Source: Brachyspira intermedia PWS/A (lineage in GTDB: Bacteria; Spirochaetota; Brachyspiria; Brachyspirales; Brachyspiraceae). Taken from it: a stretch of 64,000 bases of DNA. Below the pieces are notes generated by a model. That model was not told the DNA's origin. It saw nothing but the letters and a program-made list of their open reading frames with translations, and ran no database searches. Positions 1,065-57,344 of the stretch are shown piece by piece; position 1 is the first letter of the stretch; the number at the start of each line of letters is the position of its first letter. The DNA is taken from assembly GCF_000223215.1 (NCBI RefSeq), contig NC_017243.1, positions 3,038,001 through 3,102,000 on the forward strand, given 5' to 3'. The position numbers were made by a program, and so were the translations under genes.

Positions 1065-1262
1065 AACGCACGCTAAAAATAACATAAAATATAAACAAAT
1101 TAACAATTACAAGCATAACAACATACAAAAAATAGATAATACGTGCGCTAAATTATATTCTAAATTAAAAACAGCTTGGGTGGGAAGCTAAAAATTCTAT
1201 TTAGACTGTTAAAAATATAAAGGTTTATAATTCAAAATATATCAAGAAGTATAAAGGGCGGG
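1065..1262. repeat. Family A repeat, truncated left half
   Basis: Contains the arm AACGCACGC (from 1065) closing near CGTGCGC (1141), then CTTGGGTGGG (about 1175) and AAAGGGCGGG ending at 1262. The copy stops near where the symmetry axis should be and runs into the fabV terminator, so the mirrored right half is missing. Confidence 0.75.
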
Positions 1263-1273
1263 ATTTAAAATAA

Positions 1274-1312
1274 TACAAAAAAGAAAAGCGAAGGAAATAT
1301 TAACTCCTCCGC
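1274..1312 (-). terminator. Terminator of fabV
   Basis: On the minus strand GCGGAGGA pairs with TCCTTCGC (one G-T pair) around a 9-nt loop and is followed by a T-rich tract. It lies 28 bp past the fabV stop. Confidence 0.8.
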
Positions 1313-1339
1313 CTTAATTTTATATTTAATAATTAGTTA

Positions 1340-2518
1340 TCATATCTGAACATCTTGGCTATAATCAATACCTTCTTCATCAAAGCCATGCATATTCATA
1401 TAATCTTTTCTGAATAATGCTAAATCAGCTATTTCTTTTAGATTATCTTTTGTTAATTTATTCCAAGAATCCAAAACTTCTTTTTGAACATCTTCTCTCA
1501 ATTCCCAATCATCTAATCTTATTCTGTTTTCACTGTCAACAGGTACTTCTCCGCCATTATAGAGTTTTTCGTTCAAAAGTCTATACATTTGCTCTATACA
1601 GCCCTCATGAAGGCCTTTATTTTTCATTACCTTGAACAATATGCCTATATAAAGTGGAACTGTAGGGATAACTGCTGAAGATCTAGTTACTACGGCCTTG
1701 TTTACTGACACATATGCGTGTCCTTTGATTTTATCCTGCATCTCTTTATCCAATTCATGAGCTGTTGCCTCTAAATGATCCTTAGCTTTTCCTATAGTAC
1801 CTTCTCTATATACTGCTTTTGTCATTTCAGGGCCTATATAAGAGTAAGCTACATTGATAGCATTTTCAGCTAATAGATCAGCATTAAGTAAGGCATCTGT
1901 CCATAATTTCCAATCTTCTCCGCCCATAACTTTTACAGTAGATTTTATATCATCTTCATTAGCAGGGTCAATAGATACCTCTAATAACTCCTCTGTAAGG
2001 AAATCTACACCTATACCATTATATTTTTTTCCTATAGGTTTTAAAGATGAACGGTAAAGTGTTCCTGTTGATTCGTCCATTCTTACTGGAGCTGCCAAAC
2101 TGTATATAAGCAAATCTATTTTTTCACCATTAAAGAATGTTTTAGCTTCTTTAATAACTTCTTCTTTTGAAGCGTTTAAAAAAGCATCTAATATTAAGTT
2201 TTTATCCTCTATTCCGTCTTTTTTAGCGAAAGAAGAAAAAGCCTCATTATTATACCAGCCTGGTGTAGCTGTTCTTCTTGCTGTAGCTTCTTTTTCAAAT
2301 GACACACTCATAGTTTTAGCACCTAATCCATAAGCTATAGCTATTCTGCTTGCTAGTCCGTATCCGCCTGAAGCTCCTAATATAAGAGCATTTTTTACAT
2401 TAGATTTTACTTTTGGCTGTGATTTCACATAATTAATTTGATTTTCTACTTCTTTAGCACAGCCTAATGGATGAGCTGTTATACATATATTATTTAATAT
2501 TTTTGGCTCTACTACCAT
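1340..2518 (-). CDS. fabV: Trans-2-enoyl-CoA/ACP reductase (FabV/TER family)
   Basis: NADH-dependent reduction of trans-2-enoyl thioesters, in fatty-acid synthesis or in the crotonyl-CoA to butyryl-CoA step of fermentation. The 392-aa length fits the family (about 400). Visible motifs are the N-terminal PKILNNICITAHPLGC, the Rossmann segment LILGASGGYGLASRIA, and the catalytic Y-x8-K (Y in NVAYSYIG, K in MTKAVY). The start is set at 2518 because AGGAG lies 10 nt upstream and MVVEPK matches the family start; the frame is open 33 nt further upstream. It stands alone between family A repeats and has its own terminator. Which substrate, CoA or ACP, cannot be settled from sequence. Confidence 0.95.
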   Translation of the reverse strand: MVVEPKILNNICITAHPLGCAKEVENQINYVKSQPKVKSNVKNALILGASGGYGLASRIAIAYGLGAKTMSVSFEKEATARRTATPGWYNNEAFSSFAKKDGIEDKNLILDAFLNASKEEVIKEAKTFFNGEKIDLLIYSLAAPVRMDESTGTLYRSSLKPIGKKYNGIGVDFLTEELLEVSIDPANEDDIKSTVKVMGGEDWKLWTDALLNADLLAENAINVAYSYIGPEMTKAVYREGTIGKAKDHLEATAHELDKEMQDKIKGHAYVSVNKAVVTRSSAVIPTVPLYIGILFKVMKNKGLHEGCIEQMYRLLNEKLYNGGEVPVDSENRIRLDDWELREDVQKEVLDSWNKLTKDNLKEIADLALFRKDYMNMHGFDEEGIDYSQDVQI

Positions 2519-2665
2519 ATCGTTTATTCTCCTATCGTTTTTTATTTTCAAAATATATTACAAACTAATTTTATAATACTTTATAATAAAATTGCTTTTT
2601 TTTCAATGAAAATGAAATTAAAATAATTATTAATTTAATAAATATACAAATAAAATATTAATATA

Positions 2666-3080
2666 AACGTATGGTAAATATAATATGAATAACATTAATT
2701 AATAGCTCTACATATATACAAAAAAATAATACATACGGTATATAAATTCTAAATCCTAATCACATTAGGGCGGGTATGCTTTTTCTAAATTCGCAATAGA
2801 TAAATTTAAGTCATAATTTTTAATTTTACATAAAATATAAAAGGGCGGGCATTTAAATTAATACAAAAAATCAAATTATACTTGCCCACCCTATAGGCTT
2901 TCAGCATAATATACAATTTTCATACTATCTTTCTTTTTAGTTTTTCAAAGTTATTTCAGCTACCCACCCAAGATTTTTTTTAATTTATAGTCTATACACC
3001 GCACGTTAAGCAACATTATAAATATTGATTTAATGCAATTTTAATTTTTATTAAATTTATAATTTCATTAACCGTGCGTT
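2666..3080. repeat. Family A nested palindrome, full copy
   Basis: In order: left arm AACGTATGG (2666) to ACATACGG (about 2731), GGGCGGG (2768-2774), AAGGGCGGGC (2843-2849), central axis, GCCCACCC (2885-2891), GCTACCCACCCAAG (2963-2969), right arm ACCGCACG (about 2998) to ACCGTGCGTT (3071-3080). In the left arm the core CGCACG/CGTGCG reads CGTATG/CATACG, a paired change that keeps the stem. Confidence 0.88.
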
Positions 3081-3094
3081 CAAAAAATTCTTAA

Positions 3095-4453
3095 TCAAAA
3101 TTTATTTAAAACTTTTATTAATTCATTTTCAATATTTCTCATAACTTCAGCAAATTCTTTTATGTTTTGAAAATCTTCCCCGTTTGATTTTGTTGAAGGA
3201 ATTTTTAAAGCATATTTGTATATACCGCAATCAGCATATCCATTATAAGCATTATTTAAAACGCCTATTTTTATAATTTTATTTGCATCGGTACAATTAA
3301 CTTCTTCTAATGGATAAATAAAACCTGCCTTTTTAGCATTAAGTGTATAAGCATAAGAAACTATTTGATGCTTGTCATTTCTGTCTATGCTTTCATTATC
3401 ATAATAGTTTAATCTTTTGTATTTGGCATCAAGAACTATATTATTATCATTTTCTAATTTATAGAAGTCCGGATAAACCCTCCAAGCATTATCAAGTAAT
3501 TTAATACCATTTTTTGAATTTCTATTTTCAGCATGAATAAAATTTTCTTTGCTTAAAAAAGTATTTAAATACTCTTCAAAAAGCCAAGCTCCGTCAAATA
3601 ATAATCCGTATACAGTATTATCATTACTGCCGTATTTTAATTTTTCATGCCTTAATATTTGAATGCATATTTTTCTTAAAGGCTCATATTCATAATAGTA
3701 AGGGTGAGATAATTTTTTTAAGTTTTTATTTATAATACTTTCTCTTTTATTTCTCTCATAACTAGAAGTAGAATAAAATACCTGCTGAACATAATTTTTT
3801 ATTTCACTATCATAACTTAAAAGATATCTGTTTTTATTGTTTATATATTCTATAGTGTGCCTTATTAATTGTGTGATATTATTATCATAGCTGTATTCTC
3901 TAGTATTGTACGAAATTTTACCATTGAAAGGAATATTATTTTTAATGTATCTATTAATATCAATAGTTCCTTTAACATTAGCATCATTATGCTTTATTAA
4001 TTTGTATTGTTTAAAAAGGCCCTGTCTTAATGCTCTTTTGAAAAAACTAATAAACATATAAATTAAAAAATCAAATGAATCGTCATAATCCTTACTATGC
4101 TCTAAATTAACAATATTAATAGAAAGTACTTTCATAAGCATATAATGCAGAAAATAATCTTCATTATCATTTACAGCGAACCTTGAAGATATTTTTATTT
4201 GCGTATTATTATAGCTTATAAATCCCATTATATTATTAGTTAATAAACTGTCATTAATAATATCAAATATTCTGCTGTCTTCTTCTAAGTCCTTACTTTC
4301 TTTTATAGAGTTAGGAAATATTATAATATTATCTTTCACATCAGAAAGAGTTTTACTAGCAATTTCTTTGATTGAAATTATATCTTCTTCAGAAATATTT
4401 TCTTTTATATTTATTAATTTTTCATGTTTAGTATTATCTTTTAATTTAATCAT
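3095..4453 (-). CDS. mcrC: McrC-like subunit of an McrBC restriction system
   Basis: McrC is the nuclease partner that joins the McrB GTPase ring to cut modified (usually methylated) DNA. The 452-aa protein has an N-terminal region resembling the McrB-interacting part of McrC and a C-terminal PD-(D/E)xK nuclease: VYPDFYK near residue 328 and VLDAKYKRL near 340. These are the expected D and DxK residues, so the nuclease looks intact. It lies 172 bp downstream of mcrB on the same strand; this pair usually overlaps, so the gap is unusual. No good Shine-Dalgarno precedes the ATG. No methyltransferase is nearby, as expected for a modification-dependent enzyme. Confidence 0.9.
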   Translation of the reverse strand: MIKLKDNTKHEKLINIKENISEEDIISIKEIASKTLSDVKDNIIIFPNSIKESKDLEEDSRIFDIINDSLLTNNIMGFISYNNTQIKISSRFAVNDNEDYFLHYMLMKVLSINIVNLEHSKDYDDSFDFLIYMFISFFKRALRQGLFKQYKLIKHNDANVKGTIDINRYIKNNIPFNGKISYNTREYSYDNNITQLIRHTIEYINNKNRYLLSYDSEIKNYVQQVFYSTSSYERNKRESIINKNLKKLSHPYYYEYEPLRKICIQILRHEKLKYGSNDNTVYGLLFDGAWLFEEYLNTFLSKENFIHAENRNSKNGIKLLDNAWRVYPDFYKLENDNNIVLDAKYKRLNYYDNESIDRNDKHQIVSYAYTLNAKKAGFIYPLEEVNCTDANKIIKIGVLNNAYNGYADCGIYKYALKIPSTKSNGEDFQNIKEFAEVMRNIENELIKVLNKF

Positions 4454-4493
4454 TTTATTGTTTGTGTTAATTTTTTATTATAAATTTCTTCAA

Positions 4494-4518
4494 CTTTTTT
4501 GTAGTGCAAAAAAGTTGC
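4494..4518. repeat. Perfect inverted repeat between mcrB and mcrC
   Basis: AACTTTTTTG (4494-4503) and CAAAAAAGTT (4509-4518) form a 10-bp stem with a 5-nt loop. The stem resembles the CAACTTTT/AAAAGTTG hairpin at one end of a family B copy, so it may be a B remnant. It could also weaken transcription into mcrC. Confidence 0.6.
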
Positions 4519-4625
4519 AAAAAACACAATTACCATAGCTTATTATTATTTTGCATTGAAATAAATATATTAAAAAATTATTAATTGTTATAATATCAAT
4601 TACTATCATTTTGTTTATTTAAATT

Positions 4626-7073
4626 TTAATTATTACTATCTTGTGATGTATTACTATCAGATTGTGTATTATTATCGCAACCTGAATTATAAGACTTTTT
4701 TAATTCATCAAGTTTATTTTCAGCATCAGGCATTCCTCTCAAATACTCATACAAAAGTCCTCTCAAATGATTCTCCCATAGCATATCAAATGCTTTGTTT
4801 TTATTATCACTTGAACTCTTATAATAATTTTCTAATTTCAAGAAATAAGAAGCTCCTATATGATAAGAGGAATTAAAACTTTCTATTTCGCTAATTGCAT
4901 TATTTAAAGCATTCATTCTATCAATTGCATTTTGTTTTATATTTGAATCTAAGCTTTTTAATATATTCTCTTGTGTTTCTTTGGCATTAACCTCTTTCCA
5001 AGCGAATCTTCTACGCATAGCAAAGTCCATACTCTCAACGCTTCTGTCAATATCATTCATTGTACCTATTATATAAACATTCTCTGGTATATAAAAATAT
5101 TTTTCTGATTCCTCATCTATCAAATTAGAGTATTGAGTAAGAACTTTTCCTTTAATACCTCTGTATCCGGGATCAACAGCAAAGAATAATTCTCCGAAAA
5201 TCTTTGAAATCTCCCCTCTGTTAATTTCATCTATTATAAATACAAAATTTTTCTTTTGAACTTTTTCTACTGTATTGGTATTATTTTTAACTTCTTCTTC
5301 TATTTTAGAATTATATTTTTCATAGAATGCTTTTAAAAAACCATATACATATGTTATAAAAGATTCAAATCCAAATGCTGATATTAACATACTTCTATTC
5401 CATTCACTAATGGATTTACTAATAAATATTTTATATAATCTAACCATGTCATCTAAATTTTTCTTAATCTTATGAGCACTTTTAGTATCAATATCAAATG
5501 ACATATCCGTATCATATAAGTTTATTTCTTTTAATGGTGCTGCTTTCCTATCAATACCATCAATTTTAAAATATCCTTTTTCATTTATTATATTGGAAAC
5601 ATCATCTATGAATCTAATCAAATTATTTTTTATAATAGTATCTTTATTTAATTCTGATACTTCTTTCTTACTATCAATTAAATTCTTGAGTGCCTTTTTA
5701 CAAAACTCTTTAAAAACTCCGTCCTTTCTTTCAAAACCAATTTTTCCGTCACTATCTTTAATAGGTCTTAACCCCTCAACAAAATCTGTATAATCATAAG
5801 ATGGGTGAAACTGCACAAATCCATAGTCTAATTCTTTAGAATTAATATTTTCAGTATTTCCTTCTAATAGCTTAATATTCTCCGATAATATTATTTTAAT
5901 TATATATGAATCAATATCTTTTAAATTATTATCAAAAAAACTTTTTATATTTTTATTTAGTTTATATATATTATTATCTTTTTCTATACTAAATATATCA
6001 CATATACTAAGAATGTCTTCATTTGACATCATAGGAAAATATGTATATGGGTGATATGTATTATATATTTTTATTGACAAATAATTCTTACGTTTATTAA
6101 ATACTGAATCTTTGTCATCATAATTTTCTATTGTAGCCATTTTATATAATTCTTCGCCTATTTCTTTTATAAGTTCATCATCAGTTTTATCAGTTTCATT
6201 TACCAAATTACCTGTTTTTTTATCATAATATAAAATATATGATGATTTAGAACCTAGCGCAGAAAAGTTATCCAATAATTCCCTTTTAAGTCCGTATTCA
6301 ATCCAATAACAAAAAGAATTTTTATCTCCTCTGCCTACAGCATAATCATCTATGCTTATATTTTTCAAACTCTCTATAGGAAATTTTTTTCTAAATTGTT
6401 CTCTTAATTCATCTCCTTCTTTTTTCAATTTTTCTAAACGATCTTTATTTTTATTATAATAGTCAATTATAAATTGTTTATAGTCTTTAATTTGTGTAGT
6501 ATTATCCTTCATCATTTCTTTAGCTATTTCTTTAGCCAAATAGGTTTTTCCTGTTCCCGGTGCTCCTGTGAGTATAAGATTATAATTTTGTTCTAACAGT
6601 TCTTTACATTCTTTTATCATATTTATATCCATTATTTTTTTTATTTCATCTATTAATATTTTATCCTTATCATTGCTTGTTTTTAATTTATAAATAGGTT
6701 GTACAGTTGGATAAGATATACTATCTTCTTTAAATGTTAGTTTTTTGCCTTTCAATGAAATGAATTTTTTTATTTTTCTAGCTTGAAAATCATTATCGTA
6801 GTAGCGACATAAATAAGCATCTGAATTTACTATACCTGAAAAATAATTATGTTCAGGATCTCTTTTATAAGCTTCTCTAATTCCTCTTTGACTTACTATT
6901 ATAATATCACCTAATTCTATTTTATTTTTAAATGTTTGACCGCTACTATCGAAATATCCAAATAAACATATATGTTCTCTTTCCATAATATCTAAAAAAC
7001 TAGGAATTTGGTTTTCATTTATATTTTTACTATATTTTAAATTGCTTGTATTTATTACCCAGAAATTATTCAT
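4626..7073 (-). CDS. mcrB: McrB-like AAA+ GTPase of an McrBC restriction system
   Basis: This 815-aa protein is the motor and modified-DNA-recognition subunit. The first ~130 residues start MNNFWVINTSN and include ELGDIIIVSQRGIREAYK; they look like a PUA/EVE-type fold that could read a modified base (inference). The AAA+ domain follows: Walker A GAPGTGKT (residues 170-177), Walker B FVFIIDEINRG (about 608-617), sensor-like GTMNDIDRS (about 668-676) and MRRRFAW (about 687). E. coli McrB has NTAD at the position where this protein has NDID. A long insert separates Walker A and B, as in other McrB proteins. The C-terminus is Asn/Ser-rich and disordered. The mcrBC pair is bracketed by family A repeats. 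Confidence 0.9.
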   Translation of the reverse strand: MNNFWVINTSNLKYSKNINENQIPSFLDIMEREHICLFGYFDSSGQTFKNKIELGDIIIVSQRGIREAYKRDPEHNYFSGIVNSDAYLCRYYDNDFQARKIKKFISLKGKKLTFKEDSISYPTVQPIYKLKTSNDKDKILIDEIKKIMDINMIKECKELLEQNYNLILTGAPGTGKTYLAKEIAKEMMKDNTTQIKDYKQFIIDYYNKNKDRLEKLKKEGDELREQFRKKFPIESLKNISIDDYAVGRGDKNSFCYWIEYGLKRELLDNFSALGSKSSYILYYDKKTGNLVNETDKTDDELIKEIGEELYKMATIENYDDKDSVFNKRKNYLSIKIYNTYHPYTYFPMMSNEDILSICDIFSIEKDNNIYKLNKNIKSFFDNNLKDIDSYIIKIILSENIKLLEGNTENINSKELDYGFVQFHPSYDYTDFVEGLRPIKDSDGKIGFERKDGVFKEFCKKALKNLIDSKKEVSELNKDTIIKNNLIRFIDDVSNIINEKGYFKIDGIDRKAAPLKEINLYDTDMSFDIDTKSAHKIKKNLDDMVRLYKIFISKSISEWNRSMLISAFGFESFITYVYGFLKAFYEKYNSKIEEEVKNNTNTVEKVQKKNFVFIIDEINRGEISKIFGELFFAVDPGYRGIKGKVLTQYSNLIDEESEKYFYIPENVYIIGTMNDIDRSVESMDFAMRRRFAWKEVNAKETQENILKSLDSNIKQNAIDRMNALNNAISEIESFNSSYHIGASYFLKLENYYKSSSDNKNKAFDMLWENHLRGLLYEYLRGMPDAENKLDELKKSYNSGCDNNTQSDSNTSQDSNN

Positions 7074-7194
7074 ATAAAAACTCTTAATGTTTTATATAAC
7101 TATTAAAACTTTAACTATTATATAAATATTTCTTATAAATTCAATGTACTATATAATACTTCCTTATACAAATTATGTTTTAAAACTTTATTTA

Positions 7195-7615
7195 CATACC
7201 ACGCCCTATAAAATTTAAAGCTTAATTATAAATTTAAGCTTCATTTATTTTGGTATTTAAATTGAAAAAGCATACCCACCCAATCGTTAATTAAATCGAA
7301 AATATATTTAACGCACGATTAACTGATTTATAAATATAATAAAAATTTTAATTGCAAATGATTCTATATTTTTAGCTTTGCTATAGAGGCGGTGAATAGA
7401 CTATAATTAAAAAAACTTGTGGGGCAGCTAAAATAATAGTTGATAAATATTGTAAAGCTAATTATAAAAATTGTGAGCCTCTGGCAAGTTTACTTTACAT
7501 AGCCTTTGCCGTAGCACGCATAGCAAACGAACAATTTTTATTAGCAATAATAAAAAATAATAATACAAAAATATCAGAAATAGCTGAAAGCCTAAAGTAC
7601 GGGCAAATGTAAATC
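7195..7615. repeat. Family A repeat, rearranged copy
   Basis: The modules are in a different phase. It starts with the right-half motifs (CACGCCCT near 7201, then CATACCCACCCAATC), continues with one arm (AACGCACGATTA to GAGGCGGTGAATAG), then left-half motifs (CTTGTGGGGCAGCTAAAA and GCCTAAAGTACGGGC). This is what recombination between two copies sharing one arm would leave. It lies between mcrB and the broken lipoprotein gene. Confidence 0.7.
7463..7543. repeat. Small insert bounded by inverted repeats inside family A
   Basis: TAAAAATTGT and ACAATTTTTA bound a GC-richer core of about 56 bp (7475-7530) that the other family A copies lack. It may be a tiny palindromic insertion. I do not recognise the core. 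Confidence 0.5.
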
Positions 7616-8474: not shown

Positions 8475-8885
8475 AACGCACGGGGAGCTAATTTATAAAT
8501 ATAATAAAAATTTTAATTTCAAATAATTCTATATTTTTAGCTTTGCTTTGCGTGCGGAGTATAGACTTTAAATTTCAAAACTCTTGGGCGGGCAGCTAAA
8601 ATAACAGTTGATATTGTTAAAAAATAATTATTCAAAAATATCAGAATTAACTAAAATCCTAAAGGGCGGGCAAGTGTAATTAAATTTTAAAACTTATTTT
8701 AATTCCCCACCCTTAAAAATTTAAAACTATATTTTTAATTATAATATTGATTATATTTAAAATTTTAATTAGAAATTAAAGCACCCACCCAAGTGTTTTG
8801 TAATTTTTTGATTTATATTAACGCACGATTAAATTATTATGATATAGAATTTCAATTGAATTACTCATATAAATTACCGTGCGTT
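8475..8885. repeat. Family A nested palindrome, full copy
   Basis: Left arm AACGCACGG (8475) to GCGTGCGG, then CTTGGGCGGGCAGCTAAAAT, AAAGGGCGGGCAAGTGTAAT, axis, CCCACCCTT, GCACCCACCCAAG, and right arm AACGCACGA to ACCGTGCGTT (8876-8885). One of the best-preserved copies. Confidence 0.88.
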
Positions 8886-8900
8886 TTGAATATTTATGAT

Positions 8901-9863
8901 TTAAAAAGCCTTTATCTTCAAAATATCATGTATATGCACTATACCAATAGGATTATTATTATTGTTTACTACTACCAAATTGGTAATCTTTCCTTCCATG
9001 ATATGTAAAGCCTCTCCGATAAGAGTATCCTCATAAATGACTTTAGGAGAAGTGTTCATAATATATTTAACTTCTTTAGAAAGTATATTTTTTATATCAT
9101 CATCTTTGACAAGAAGCCTTTTTAAATCCCCATCTACTATTATTCCTTTTAAAACGTTCTTATCATCGACAACAATGGCTATTCCGAGCTTGCATTCTAT
9201 GATTTTAAATAAAGCCTCCTGCAATGAAGTATCCGGAAAAATAATAGGCAAATTTTCAGTATGCATAATAGATTTAACTTTTGCAAGCTGTCTTCCCAAA
9301 CTTCCTCCCGGATGGAACACTGCAAAATCTTCCGCTCTGAATCCTCTCAATTCCATTAATGCAGTAGCCAAAGCATCAGATAAAGCTAAAGATGCTGTAG
9401 TGCTTACAGTAGGAGCTAATTTTAAAGGACAAGCCTCTTCTTTAACATAAGTAAGCAATGTAATTTTAGCATTCTTAGAAAGTGTAGAATTAATATCATT
9501 TGTAATTGCAATGTATGGTATGTTCTGTCTGCATAACCAATTTACAAGCTCTATAATCTCACGTGATTCACCGCCTTTAGAATATAGCAAACAATAATCA
9601 TCTTTTGTAATCATACCGAAATCACCATGCATACATTCATTAGGATCAACAAAAAAACTTGGAGTACCAGTGGATGCAAAAGTGGCCGCTGCCTTTCTTG
9701 CTACATGTCCGCTCTTTCCTACTCCTGAAGTTATGACTCTGCCTCTAATATTAAATAACTCTTTTACTGCATTTTCAAAATTGCTATCTAATTTATCCGA
9801 CAACATTTTAAGATTTTCACTTTCAAGTAAAAGAGTAGTTTTTCCTCGTTCAATTATATTCAT
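8901..9863 (-). CDS. kdsD: Arabinose-5-phosphate isomerase (KpsF/GutQ family)
   Basis: Interconverts ribulose-5-phosphate and arabinose-5-phosphate, the first step toward Kdo for lipopolysaccharide-type glycans. The 320-aa protein has an N-terminal SIS domain (VITSGVGKSGHVARKAAATF, then FVDPNECMHGDFG and SKGGESREI) and two C-terminal CBS domains (from about residue 205). Length matches the family (320-330). It is the last gene of a six-gene minus-strand operon; the 42-aa ORF ends 31 bp upstream of its start. The ribosome binding site is weak. The CBS pair could sense a nucleotide, as in homologues. Confidence 0.93.
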   Translation of the reverse strand: MNIIERGKTTLLLESENLKMLSDKLDSNFENAVKELFNIRGRVITSGVGKSGHVARKAAATFASTGTPSFFVDPNECMHGDFGMITKDDYCLLYSKGGESREIIELVNWLCRQNIPYIAITNDINSTLSKNAKITLLTYVKEEACPLKLAPTVSTTASLALSDALATALMELRGFRAEDFAVFHPGGSLGRQLAKVKSIMHTENLPIIFPDTSLQEALFKIIECKLGIAIVVDDKNVLKGIIVDGDLKRLLVKDDDIKNILSKEVKYIMNTSPKVIYEDTLIGEALHIMEGKITNLVVVNNNNNPIGIVHIHDILKIKAF

Positions 9864-20853: not shown

Positions 20854-20870
20854 GGGGGTGGGCGGGCGGG
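20854..20870 (+). other. G-quadruplex motif (copy 1)
   Basis: GGGGGTGGGCGGGCGGG has four runs of three or more G separated by single bases, the most stable class of G4 motif. It is striking in such AT-rich DNA. It sits 140 bp upstream of the TPR gene start. Confidence 0.8.
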
Positions 20871-23607: not shown

Positions 23608-23624
23608 GGGGGTGGGTGGGCGGG
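23608..23624 (+). other. G-quadruplex motif (copy 2)
   Basis: GGGGGTGGGTGGGCGGG: four G-runs with 1-nt loops. One loop base differs from copy 1 but every G-run is kept. Confidence 0.8.
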
Positions 23625-33262: not shown

Positions 33263-33945
33263 AACGCACGGTAAGCAAAATTTCTAATATAATAGAATTT
33301 ATATTTCAAATTAATTTTATATATTTATACCCATTTGGCGTGCGGTGAGAATACAATAAATTTTAAAAAATTCTTGGGTGGGCAGCTATAATAACTGAAC
33401 AAATTAATAAGACAAATGAAATTTAAATACCAGAAAAAACTATACCCTAAAGGGTGGGCAACTGTAATTCAATTCTAAAATTTTTATTATATACCCAGCC
33501 CTTTATTTTTTATAACTATATTTTAATTTTAGTTTTTTCAATTTTATTGTTTGTTGTGGATTTGCCCCCACACCCCCACTTCTTTTGCGACCGAAGGAAG
33601 TGCCTGTGGTATTACCACAAAGAAGCAGGCACAGCCCGCCTGTGGCGAAAGGCTACATTTGGGCTTTAATTTAACAAATTATCTTACATGTAAGACAATT
33701 TTAGTATTATTTAGTACTAATTTTTTACACTTGCACTTTTTGGTTCTTTTTGCGGCGGGAAAAAGAACAACCAAAAATTGAGAAACTTAAAAATTTTTAG
33801 TATAACTTATCTAGAAATTTTAGCACCCGCCCAAGTGTTGATTAAGTTTATAATTTATTTAACGCACGGTGAGTAAAATTTATATAATACAATAAGATTT
33901 GAATTATAGATAAAATTATATTTTAGGCTTTATTTAGCGTGCTGT
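33263..33945. repeat. Family A nested palindrome, split by a family B copy
   Basis: All A modules are present in order: AACGCACGG (33263), GCGTGCGGT, CTTGGGTGGGCAGC, AAAGGGTGGGCAACTGTAAT, CCAGCCCTT, then (after ~270 bp of family B) GCACCCGCCCAAG, AACGCACGG and GCGTGCTGT (33937-33945). Without the insert the copy would be about 410 bp, the normal length. No gene lies in this 790-bp gap. Confidence 0.88.
33535..33806. mobile_element. Family B element nested in family A
   Basis: Shares with the other B copies CCCCACTTCTTTTG, the GGCTACATTTGGGCTTTAAT segment, AGTATTATTTAGTACTAAT, the hairpin GTTCTTTTT-GCGGCGGG-AAAAAGAAC (33743-33768) and the end AAACTTAAAAATTTTTAGTATA. It interrupts a family A copy between its C2 and C1 motifs, so it arrived after A. 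Edges are accurate to about 10 bp. No transposase is encoded. Confidence 0.82.
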
Positions 33946-44471: not shown

Positions 44472-44894
44472 ACCGCACGGAGAACAAAGCTATAAATATA
44501 ATTTGATTGTCATTTATAATTTTTCTATATTTAAAATTTGGTTTAGCGTGCGTTAGATAAATTCTAAATTTAATTAATGCTTGGGCGGGTGCTGAAATTT
44601 ATAAGTAAGCTATAAAGATAGTTAATATTAAAATTCAAAAATTAGTTATAAAGTATAAAGGGCGGGGAATGTAATAAAGTTTTAAAATTTAATTACACTG
44701 CCCCACCCTCTAGGCTTTTTATTTTTTCTGCTATTTAAATGTCATTTTTCTTTTTGATTTGTTCAGTTATTATAGCTACCCACCCAAGATTTTTTAAATT
44801 TATAGTATACTCACCGCACGAAAAACAATTATAAAAAATACAGTTTAATAAAGTAATACAATTTAATTATATTTACAATCTCTTTACCGTGCGT
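44472..44894. repeat. Family A nested palindrome, full copy
   Basis: ACCGCACGG (44472) to GCGTGCGTT, GCTTGGGCGGGTGC, AAAGGGCGGGGAATGTAAT, axis, GCCCCACCCTCTAGGC, GCTACCCACCCAAG, ACCGCACG to ACCGTGCGT (44886-44894). It lies upstream of ligA; another full copy lies downstream. Confidence 0.88.
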
Positions 44895-47120: not shown

Positions 47121-47154
47121 AAGACTGCAAATAAAAGTGTTTGCAGTCTTTTTT
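47121..47154 (+). terminator. Terminator of ligA
   Basis: Perfect 11-bp stem AAGACTGCAAA / TTTGCAGTCTT with an 8-nt loop, followed by TTTT. Confidence 0.93.
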
Positions 47155-47269: not shown

Positions 47270-47696
47270 AACGCACGGTTAGCTAAATTTATTATGAAAT
47301 TTAAATGTTATTATTAATTGACTTATATTTATAATTTTACTCTTTGTGCGGTTAATAGATTATAAATTTAAATAAACTAGGGCGGGTACTAAAAAATTCT
47401 TAATTAAACCAAAAAAGAAATTAAAACAAAATTAAAAAGTAAATCAATAAAAATAAAGGGTGGGGTATGTAATAAAAGTTTTAAAATTTAATTACACTTG
47501 CCCACCCTTTAGGCTTATAGTCTTTTATGATATTTAAATTTTATTTTTCTTGTTAATTTGTTCTGGTATTATAGCTTCCCACCCAAGAATTTTTTAAATT
47601 TATTGTATTCTCAGCGCACGTTGAATTGGTATAAATATATAAATTAATTTGAAATATAGACTTTATTATATTTTGAAATTTTACTTACCGTGCGTT
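47270..47696. repeat. Family A nested palindrome, full copy
   Basis: AACGCACGG (47270) to TTGTGCGGTTAATAG, CTAGGGCGGGTAC, AAAGGGTGGGGTATGTAAT, axis, CTTGCCCACCCTTTAGGC, GCTTCCCACCCAAG, AGCGCACGT to ACCGTGCGTT (47687-47696). Confidence 0.88.
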
Positions 47697-54849: not shown

Positions 54850-55277
54850 AACGCACGGTAAATAGACAATATAATAATATAAATTTAATTTTTTATTTTC
54901 ACTGTATAATTATACATTTTTTATCGTGCGGTAAGCTAACTATAAAATTAAAAAAATCTTGGGCGGGTGCTATATCAACTAATTTAAATAAAAAGAAAAA
55001 TAAAAGCAAAAATGAATAATTAAGCAGAAAGTATAAAGGGCGGGCAAGTGTAATTAAATTTTAAAACTTTATTTACATACCCCACCCTATAGATTTTCTG
55101 CTTTATTATAAATTTATAATATCATTTATCTTACCGCTTAATACATAAAATATGGCTGCCAACCCAAGTTGTTATTGGATTTAAAATCTATTCAACGCAC
55201 GGTCAATCAACTATTCTTTATAATTAAAATTTTATTATTTAACTTATTTATATTTTTTATTTAGCTTAGCGTGCGTG
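54850..55277. repeat. Family A nested palindrome, full copy
   Basis: The clearest example of the mirror layout: left arm AACGCACGG (54850) to CGTGCGGT (54932), GGGCGGG at 54961, GGGCGGG at 55038, axis near 55062, CCCACCC at 55081, CCAACCC at 55159, right arm AACGCACGG (55194) to GCGTGCGTG (55277). G1 and C1 lie ~98 and ~100 bp from the axis, G2 and C2 ~21 and ~22 bp. Confidence 0.9.
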
Positions 55278-55392: not shown

Positions 55393-56763
55393 ATGAATAT
55401 AAAATTTGATATACTAAAACCTTTTGAAAAATGGGCAAATACTGAAAAGAGATTGAAAATAGCTTATGGAGGACGAGGAGGTGGAAAAAGTGAATCCATA
55501 GCAAGAATATTGATAGCTAAAAGTTTTGAAAAAAGCGGAGTAATACTATGCTCAAGAGAAATACAAAAATCAATATCCTACTCAACCTACCCTCTTTTAA
55601 TAAGTATCATAAAAGAATTGAAATTAGAAAAGTTTTTTAATATAAAAAGAAATGAAATCATTAATAAAATTACAAACTGCAAATTTATATTTTTAGGTAT
55701 TAGAGAATGTTCTATAGAGGAAATTAAATCTATTTATAATGTGAGAATATGCTTTATAGAAGAAGCCCAAACTCTCACTCAAAGAAGCTACGAAATATTA
55801 GAGCCTTCAATAAGAGCTGAAAAAAGTGAAATATGGATAGCATTTAATCCTAGATTTGAAACAGATTTTATTTATCAAACAGTAAGTAAATTTAATTTGG
55901 AAAATAAATTCTATACAGATAAAAATAATAATAAATATAATTATCAAGAATATGAAGATAATAATATTTTAATTACATTTATAAATTATGATGGTAATTA
56001 TTATTTCAGTGATATATTAAATAAATCAAGACTTTCTACTTTAAAACTCATGCCTAAAATGTATGATCATATTTGGCTTGGAAAAATAAAAAATAAACAA
56101 GGTAAAATTTTCTTATATTCAAAATTAAAATTCTATGATGATAATTTAAAAGAAAATATAAATAAAATCAATTCATCAGAACATAAAGCAGTGGTAGATC
56201 CCGCATTCGGTGAATATAATTGTTTTACTTCAGCAATAATATATACACAAATAGGAGAAGATATTTATTTAATAGACTCCGGACTTATAAGAAATGATTC
56301 CAACTCCACTACAGATGAAAGCATAATAAATTTTCTATCAAATAAAAACATAAAAAAAATATTATGCGAATCAAATTTTGCACAAAAAGAATTGGTAAAA
56401 AGATTAGAAAAACATTTTGAAGTTACTCCGTTTTATGTGCATAAAAATAAGGCAGAGAGAATTGTAAATGCAAGCTATTTAATATACGATAAAGTTTATT
56501 TTCCAAAGAGCTGGCAGAAAGTACCAGAAGGCTCCGATACAGATAAATGGCTTAAAACTAATAATGGACGAGGTTATATAGCTTTAAGGCAGCTGCTTAA
56601 TTTCGATGATTCACTTGTTGGAAGCAGTATTAAAGGAGATGCATTTAGTTATTTAGATTTTCCGGATGCTTTATCTAGTTTAATATTCTTTGGTATTGAA
56701 GAAATAATAAATGAAGAAAATGATGATAAAATGAATTTAGTTAATGCTATTTTCGGAGAATAG
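55393..56763 (+). CDS. Phage-type terminase large subunit (orphan)
   Basis: Powers DNA packaging into a capsid and cuts the concatemer. The 456-aa protein has the PBSX-type layout: ATPase with Walker A GGRGGGKS (residues 26-33), Walker B VRICFIEEAQ (117-126) and coupling motif WIAFNPRFETDF; then an RNase-H-like nuclease with D269 (VVDPAFG), E326 (LCESN) and D425 (DFPDA). All catalytic residues are present and the length is full, so the gene looks selected rather than decayed. No portal, capsid or tail gene is adjacent. Family A repeats bracket it. A GGAGG lies 54 nt upstream of the ATG, before a short overlapping ORF, and the local Shine-Dalgarno is weak. Confidence 0.92.
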   Translation: MNIKFDILKPFEKWANTEKRLKIAYGGRGGGKSESIARILIAKSFEKSGVILCSREIQKSISYSTYPLLISIIKELKLEKFFNIKRNEIINKITNCKFIFLGIRECSIEEIKSIYNVRICFIEEAQTLTQRSYEILEPSIRAEKSEIWIAFNPRFETDFIYQTVSKFNLENKFYTDKNNNKYNYQEYEDNNILITFINYDGNYYFSDILNKSRLSTLKLMPKMYDHIWLGKIKNKQGKIFLYSKLKFYDDNLKENINKINSSEHKAVVDPAFGEYNCFTSAIIYTQIGEDIYLIDSGLIRNDSNSTTDESIINFLSNKNIKKILCESNFAQKELVKRLEKHFEVTPFYVHKNKAERIVNASYLIYDKVYFPKSWQKVPEGSDTDKWLKTNNGRGYIALRQLLNFDDSLVGSSIKGDAFSYLDFPDALSSLIFFGIEEIINEENDDKMNLVNAIFGE

Positions 56764-56769
56764 AATTTT

Positions 56770-57344
56770 ATTTAGCTTAAATTTAAAAACTTTCATTTAA
56801 TCCCCGCCCTTTTATCTTTATTGCTATTTTATGAATTTCAATATTAATCATCTTTATAGTTTAATTAGAATTTTTAGCACCCGCCCAAACTTTATTTAAA
56901 AAATTGAATTTCTTTAACGCACGGTTAGTAAAATTTAAAAATATAATAAAATCTGCATTTCAAATAAATTTATATTTTTAGTTTCGCTCTGCGTGCGTGT
57001 AAATAAGCAGCAAATTTAAAAAAATTTTGGGTGGGTTACTATAATTACAGTGAAAACTAAAAAGAAAAATTATACAAAAATAACAGTTAATAATTAAAAG
57101 CCTAAAGGGTGGGAAGTGAGAATAATTTTTAAAAACTTATTTTCATTCCCCGCCCTTTATTCTTTATTACTAAATTTATAATTTTAGTATTAATTATCTT
57201 TATAGTTTAATTAGAATTTTTAGCACCCACCCAAGCGTTTTTTAAATTTAGAATATATGCACCGCACGGATAACGCATTTTTATTTATTATTTTAATTAG
57301 AGTAAAAAATAAGCGTAAGTTTAAAACTTTATTCTGCGTGCGTT
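56770..57344. repeat. Family A half copy followed by a full copy
   Basis: First a right half (CCCCGCCCTTTT at 56802, GCACCCGCCCAA near 56878), then a full copy: AACGCACGG (56916) to CTGCGTGCGTG, TTTGGGTGGG, AAAGGGTGGG, axis, CCCCGCCCTTT, GCACCCACCCAAG, ACCGCACGG to GCGTGCGTT (57336-57344). The two right halves share long stretches such as TTTATAGTTTAATTAGAATT, so this is a partial tandem duplication. Confidence 0.88.

Follow-up and report, generated by a model that had tools for sequence, protein, structure and literature searches.

To our knowledge, few bacterial DNA sites are known to mark a domain of the chromosome, and the Noc-binding sites (NBS), SlmA-binding sites (SBS) and matS sites are all short. 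Both NBS and SBS comprise tens of dispersed sites, whose density is raised towards the origin and low around the terminus (PMC4726725, PMC5540599). In Escherichia coli, 23 matS sites of the matS/MatP system define a chromosome domain over 800 kb (PMC3330122), and the sites of the maoS/MaoP pair belong to a macrodomain system (PMC5441646).

The element described here, family A, was found in a window of 64,000 nucleotides (the whole stretch of DNA analyzed, C2:3038001-3102000) from the genome of Brachyspira intermedia PWS/A (G000; 3,308,048 bases in two contigs). It shares a dispersed, origin-biased distribution with NBS and SBS, but whereas an NBS is a palindrome of 14 bp to which a ParB paralogue binds, family A is a composite platform of ~420 bp. 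One match to PF02195 (ParB_N) is present per genome in 26 of 26 genomes and a second ParB-family protein (Noc) is absent, indicating that family A is not a Noc system. The likeness to matS and maoS lies in sites that define a chromosome domain; the 13-bp matS of the terminus region differs from family A in sequence, size and position. With parS, family A has a common chromosomal center, and one family A arm lies within the parS locus in ten species, but the sequence is another one and the copies lie scattered across hundreds of kb to either side of it. Repeats of the REP/BIME, REPIN and MITE types are likewise intergenic and of high copy number, with a palindromic skeleton, a mosaic of units and insertion as blocks. 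In contrast to these, family A combines two types of motif at rigid spacing with an obligate asymmetry, is centered on the origin, and has motifs conserved in orthologues; its period is ~345 bp, and the palindromic unit of 20–40 bp of REP/BIME is absent. The Noc and SlmA sites are its nearest working counterparts. As the initial annotation of this DNA had supposed, full-text literature searches (in a limited library) gave no description of the element.

Layout and copy number of the family A element

The window contains the following full, split and partial copies.

1067..1262, strand., half-element: arm, TTGGGTGGG at 1176 and AAGGGCGGG at 1254
2666..3080, strand., full element with a degenerate left arm (CGTATG..CATACG), 15 bp from the stop codon of the gene at 3095-4453
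7275..7395, strand., half-element: CCCACCCAA at 7275 and an arm from 7312, right end degenerate
8475..8885, strand., full element with a shortened right arm, 16 bp from the stop codon of the gene at 8901-9863
33263..33945, strand., element split by a family B insertion between the inner and outer right motifs
44472..44894, strand., full element between divergently oriented genes, upstream of ligA
47270..47696, strand., full element downstream of ligA, motif order confirmed
54850..55277, strand., full element (copy under study): arms at 54852-54930 and 55196-55275, outer G motif at 54959, inner G at 55036, inner C at 55081, outer C at 55159 (CCAACCC)
56803..57344, strand., full element (56916-57344) with an extra half-core that shares its left arm (CCCGCCC at 56803, CCCGCCCAA at 56880)

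Six full copies and one split copy had been annotated from the sequence, and their coordinates and motif order were confirmed. They are less uniform than originally described, given the degenerate left arm at 2666, the short right arm at 8475 and the outer right motif CCAACCC at 54850. The right-hand motif, first given as CCCACCC, reads CCCRCCC, of which CCCACCC is one form.

A full element carries eight short, rigidly spaced motifs in the layout CGCACG-74-CGTGCG / TTGGGYGGG-78-AAGGGYGGG-44-CCCRCCCTT-78-CCCRCCCAAG / arm. Spacings range over 75–79 bp between the outer and inner left motifs, mostly 41–44 bp between the inner left and inner right motifs, 76–80 bp between the inner and outer right motifs, and 72–76 bp between the arm hexamers. 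The exact four-motif core occurs five times in the window, versus 0.0 per mononucleotide shuffle. Across the B. intermedia genome we identified 107 strict half-cores (TTGGGYGGG-N60,85-AAGGGYGGG) and 129 exact arms (CGCACG-N68-CGTGCG), and reversed-pattern controls for half-core and arm gave 0 matches each. The proposal that the elements form a family of stereotyped design, intergenic and evenly spaced in their motifs from copy to copy, holds genome-wide, at ~100 repeats in ~80 loci (81 in the position analysis).

The repeating half-unit (~172 bp) spans the stretch between the arm center (CGCACG-N68-CGTGCG) and the core axis and includes TTGGGYGGG and then AAGGGYGGG. Half-units meet either arm to arm or axis to axis, which produces arm-core-arm and half-arm-half forms as well as lone halves, and arrays that share arms are arranged in tandem with the ~345-bp period. 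In the B. pilosicoli-like genome G007, half-units of 233 bp form a tandem array in direct orientation (L144, 4038-5630).

The family is genus-wide, with the strict three-motif core pattern in 22 of 25 Brachyspira genomes and in 0 of 16 genomes outside the genus. G010, G021 and G006 gave no strict core match, so that any function would be dispensable or replaced there. Viral carriage was considered and rejected, as the 38 single-pattern matches among 2.9 million viral contigs were estimated to be at chance level. The family B repeat (TGCACTTTTTGGTTCTTTTTGCG; window ~33500-33830) that interrupts one family A element is an unrelated intergenic repeat, with 33 copies spread evenly over the G000 chromosome.

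Motif conservation, asymmetry and pairing

Orthologous element pairs of G019 and G023 are mostly 94–96% identical overall. In the arms, 3.5% of hexamer positions differ, versus 13.8% of interior positions, and G-motif bases (without Y) differ at 0.9% versus 11.3%; the pairs were selected by strict G motifs, so that only the arm figures are free of ascertainment, and each pair was counted in both directions, which makes the p-values too small. Other G/C bases within the modules differ at 31%, and an earlier count gave the same direction. At one site common to nine species, 12 of 12 arm-hexamer columns are invariant, versus 48% of the filler columns. This site lies ~1.3 Mb from parS, and the constraint is therefore not limited to the origin region. 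The comparisons of orthologous copies suggest that the motifs are kept under selection while the filler changes.

The mirror symmetry described in the initial annotation applies to the skeleton, but the inner motif pair and the arm ends differ between the sides. Of 60 non-redundant full cores, 56 have an inner pair made up of one GGGCGGG (C-type) and one GGGTGGG (T-type). Exactly one end of the arm is CGCACGGT in 130 of 176 arms (both ends in 5 of 176), and next to a T-type half the GT end of the arm usually faces outward. The simplest reading of these sequences is that a single polar ancestor, whose two halves had diverged, would have given rise to all copies. The C/T polarity of full cores is random with respect to replication direction and flanking genes; a weak bias on half-cores (p = 0.03) was gone on full cores and was discarded. 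Cores are located between convergent (20), codirectional (21) and divergent (5) genes.

A cruciform, a structured RNA or a terminator had been among the functions first suggested. Core and arm do contain inverted repeats, and folding of the skeleton is still stronger than that of shuffled sequences (single-strand z-scores of -5.5 for RNA and -7.4 for DNA), but we found no compensatory pairing: complementarity within versus between copies was 0.608 vs 0.622 for the axis, 0.540 vs 0.570 for the fillers and 0.516 vs 0.542 for the arms. As copies are no more complementary to themselves than to one another, selection does not act to maintain a hairpin. Together with the differing arm ends and the C-type/T-type inner pair, which leaves the central motifs mismatched in those 56 cores, this speaks against a hairpin, a cruciform or a structured RNA as the feature under selection. 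Rfam gave no family A match, its matches in the window being two tRNAs only. Scanned intrinsic terminators near elements fall outside them (that of ligA at 47121-47150 lies outside the element 47270..47696), and elements occur in divergent gaps too. A cruciform, structured RNA or bidirectional terminator is scarcely credible as the explanation of the family and, barring a discrete transcript from the elements, is already refuted as the selected feature.

Position relative to parS and the origin

The origin position was taken from parS and GC skew as markers. Searching for the parS consensus located sites in G000 (14.7 and 15.3 kb), G019 (1.676 Mb), G016 (1.593 Mb), G007 (1.883 Mb) and G009 (3.038 Mb). 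Mapping of the family A copies revealed a clustering around parS that is not visible from the window alone: the circular mean lies within 3–69 kb of parS in four of five near-complete chromosomes, with offsets of -26 kb in G000 (81 loci), +13 kb in G009 (71), +3 kb in G019 (41) and +69 kb in G016 (38). The V-test for parS-centering gave p-values of 3e-13 to 7e-10 and the fitted origin:terminus density ratio was 24–90 for these four chromosomes, which are not independent samples since the genomes are related and share inherited copies. The element means of G016 and G019 were calculated before their parS positions were known. In the fifth chromosome, of the B. pilosicoli-like G007, the parS bias of the 32 loci is marginal (p = 0.048). 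Controls in G000, family B (33 copies, p = 0.13) and the Rpn genes (n = 13, p = 0.61), are not origin-centered.

Measured at 20 positions in each genome, GC skew switches from + to - opposite the family A cluster in G000, G016 and G019. The authors of the published B. intermedia genome sequence rotated it to place base 1 at the origin defined by skew, a point that they noted to be unlinked to dnaA (PMC3163572). In G000, dnaA lies at 1.33 Mb, far from parS (14.7 kb) and from the skew origin, and parB, at 2.417 Mb, is likewise far from parS. Clustering at the terminus was our first idea, since dnaA sits opposite, and was overturned by the parS search; dnaA was dropped as an origin marker once parS was seen to agree with the genome paper of 2011 (PMC3163572). 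In Brachyspira, where dnaA is distant from the skew-defined origin, parS provides an independent marker of the origin.

Family A motifs are also found inside the parS locus. Ten species (G000, G005, G008, G013, G004, G020, G019, G023, G009 and G003) carry an arm and, after it, GGGGYGGGNGGGCGGGC between their parS sites or next to them; the GGGGYGGGNGGGCGGGC motif is degenerate in G004, G009 and G023, and in G019 it consists of three G-runs. The arm starts ~6 bp from a parS-like site in several species, and in G012 an arm and a whole core are situated between two parS sites. In G007, G014, G018 and G041 the parS sites are 108–128 bp apart, with no arm. G-quadruplex-like sequences in the window (20854-20870 and 23608-23624; GGGGGTGGGCGGGCGGG and GGGGGTGGGTGGGCGGG, each followed by CTAATAAAAACATTTAATTAAATAAAATT) resemble the G-rich sequence within the parS locus, and these sites possibly represent a further dispersed family.

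The motif pair in the parS locus could be part of an origin that lacks a clear DnaA-box cluster, with the dispersed copies titrating or regulating the initiator. Its presence in ten species would fit such a role in replication control, as would the distance of dnaA from parS and the near absence of DnaA-box-like TTATCCACA (≤1 mismatch) near parS in the regions examined. However, ~100 copies are many for titration, the pilosicoli-type genomes retain parS pairs without the arm, and the origin is placed by markers rather than by mapping. We consider this explanation improbable.

Mobility and proposed role of the element

A convergent gene pair near dnaA (site L226) has a half-arm-half element in nine genomes, with 366–385 bp between the genes; in seven genomes 4–29 bp separate the genes and the element is absent. 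Family A is here a discrete block of ~370 bp in a gap of 4–29 bp, and a gain of the block in the ancestor of the nine carriers would be simpler than loss. The suggestion that the element is a MITE is supported in its dispersal as an inserted block, seen from the occupied and empty orthologous sites, but not in its ends: fixed terminal inverted repeats are absent, copies end at an arm or at the core axis, and units interchange. The empty sites are too highly diverged to define a target or a target duplication.

A selfish, MITE-like repeat is the strongest rival to the reading that we favor. Its motifs would be the binding sites of a trans-acting transposase, the origin bias would reflect biased insertion or better survival close to the origin, and there would be no host function. 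The discrete block present in nine species and absent in seven, the polar ancestor common to the copies, the tandem and half copies and the high copy number are all consistent with this. Motif conservation after insertion, while the filler drifts, would nevertheless be unexpected for dead copies, the ends are not of one type, and family B is flat in G000; moreover, in a slow-growing organism gene dosage alone hardly seems enough to explain so steep an origin:terminus density ratio. Rpn/PDDEXK_2 was considered as the mobilizing enzyme and rejected: there is one suggestive case (L188), but 0 of 13 G000 genes are near an element and their 3.4–3.7 kb loci contain no element motifs. Taken together, we regard a selfish repeat as possible but rather unlikely.

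Whole genes are located within the core axis, between the inner left and inner right motifs, at L188 (2521-4001), L197 (2958-4318) and L195 (7901-9301); they include an Rpn-type PDDEXK_2 gene with a shifted frame and an LCM-type methyltransferase gene. In the window, McrBC restriction genes lie between half-elements (1067-7395, where the full element 2666-3080 is also found), and a Terminase_3 gene of phage or gene-transfer-agent type (55393-56763) has family A elements on both flanks. Such arrangements would be expected of a cassette-capture or recombination site that gains genes at its core axis and bounds mobile gene blocks. The cases are few, however, the genes differ and are unrelated, no recombinase linkage was found and most axes are intact, which makes this role very unlikely.

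The reading we favor, with a probability of roughly 0.5, is that family A copies are dispersed binding platforms for a putative chromosomal protein, that they spread by insertion, and that they have been kept as markers of the origin domain. Phased motifs with free filler, conservation after insertion, the lack of pairing, scarcity in divergent gaps and parS-centering all fit binding platforms; from here we infer a binding protein, its action, and selection on the distribution of the copies. The element would act as double-stranded DNA, neither as RNA nor as a hairpin, presenting rigidly phased short protein-binding sites (paired CGCACG ~74 bp apart, paired GGGYGGG ~78 and ~44 bp apart) on a platform assembled from the ~172-bp half-units. 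It may have spread through the genus as blocks inserted into intergenic gaps, after which one or more candidate chromosomal proteins would bind it and mark the origin-proximal chromosome, with selection keeping the copies. Its likely role would be in origin-domain organization, segregation or nucleoid occlusion, like that of NBS, SBS or matS. More tentatively, family A may constitute a bacterial chromosome-organizing system, in which a putative protein reads the eight phased sites of platforms scattered for hundreds of kb to either side of parS and defines the origin domain, the parS-embedded arm serving as the nucleation site and the sites having been recruited from an insertion element.

These results suggest that family A is an undescribed way to mark the origin half of a bacterial chromosome. 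A large, modular, phased, origin-centered and genus-conserved element would be a different solution from that of NBS, SBS and matS, and makes the hunt for its binding protein straightforward.
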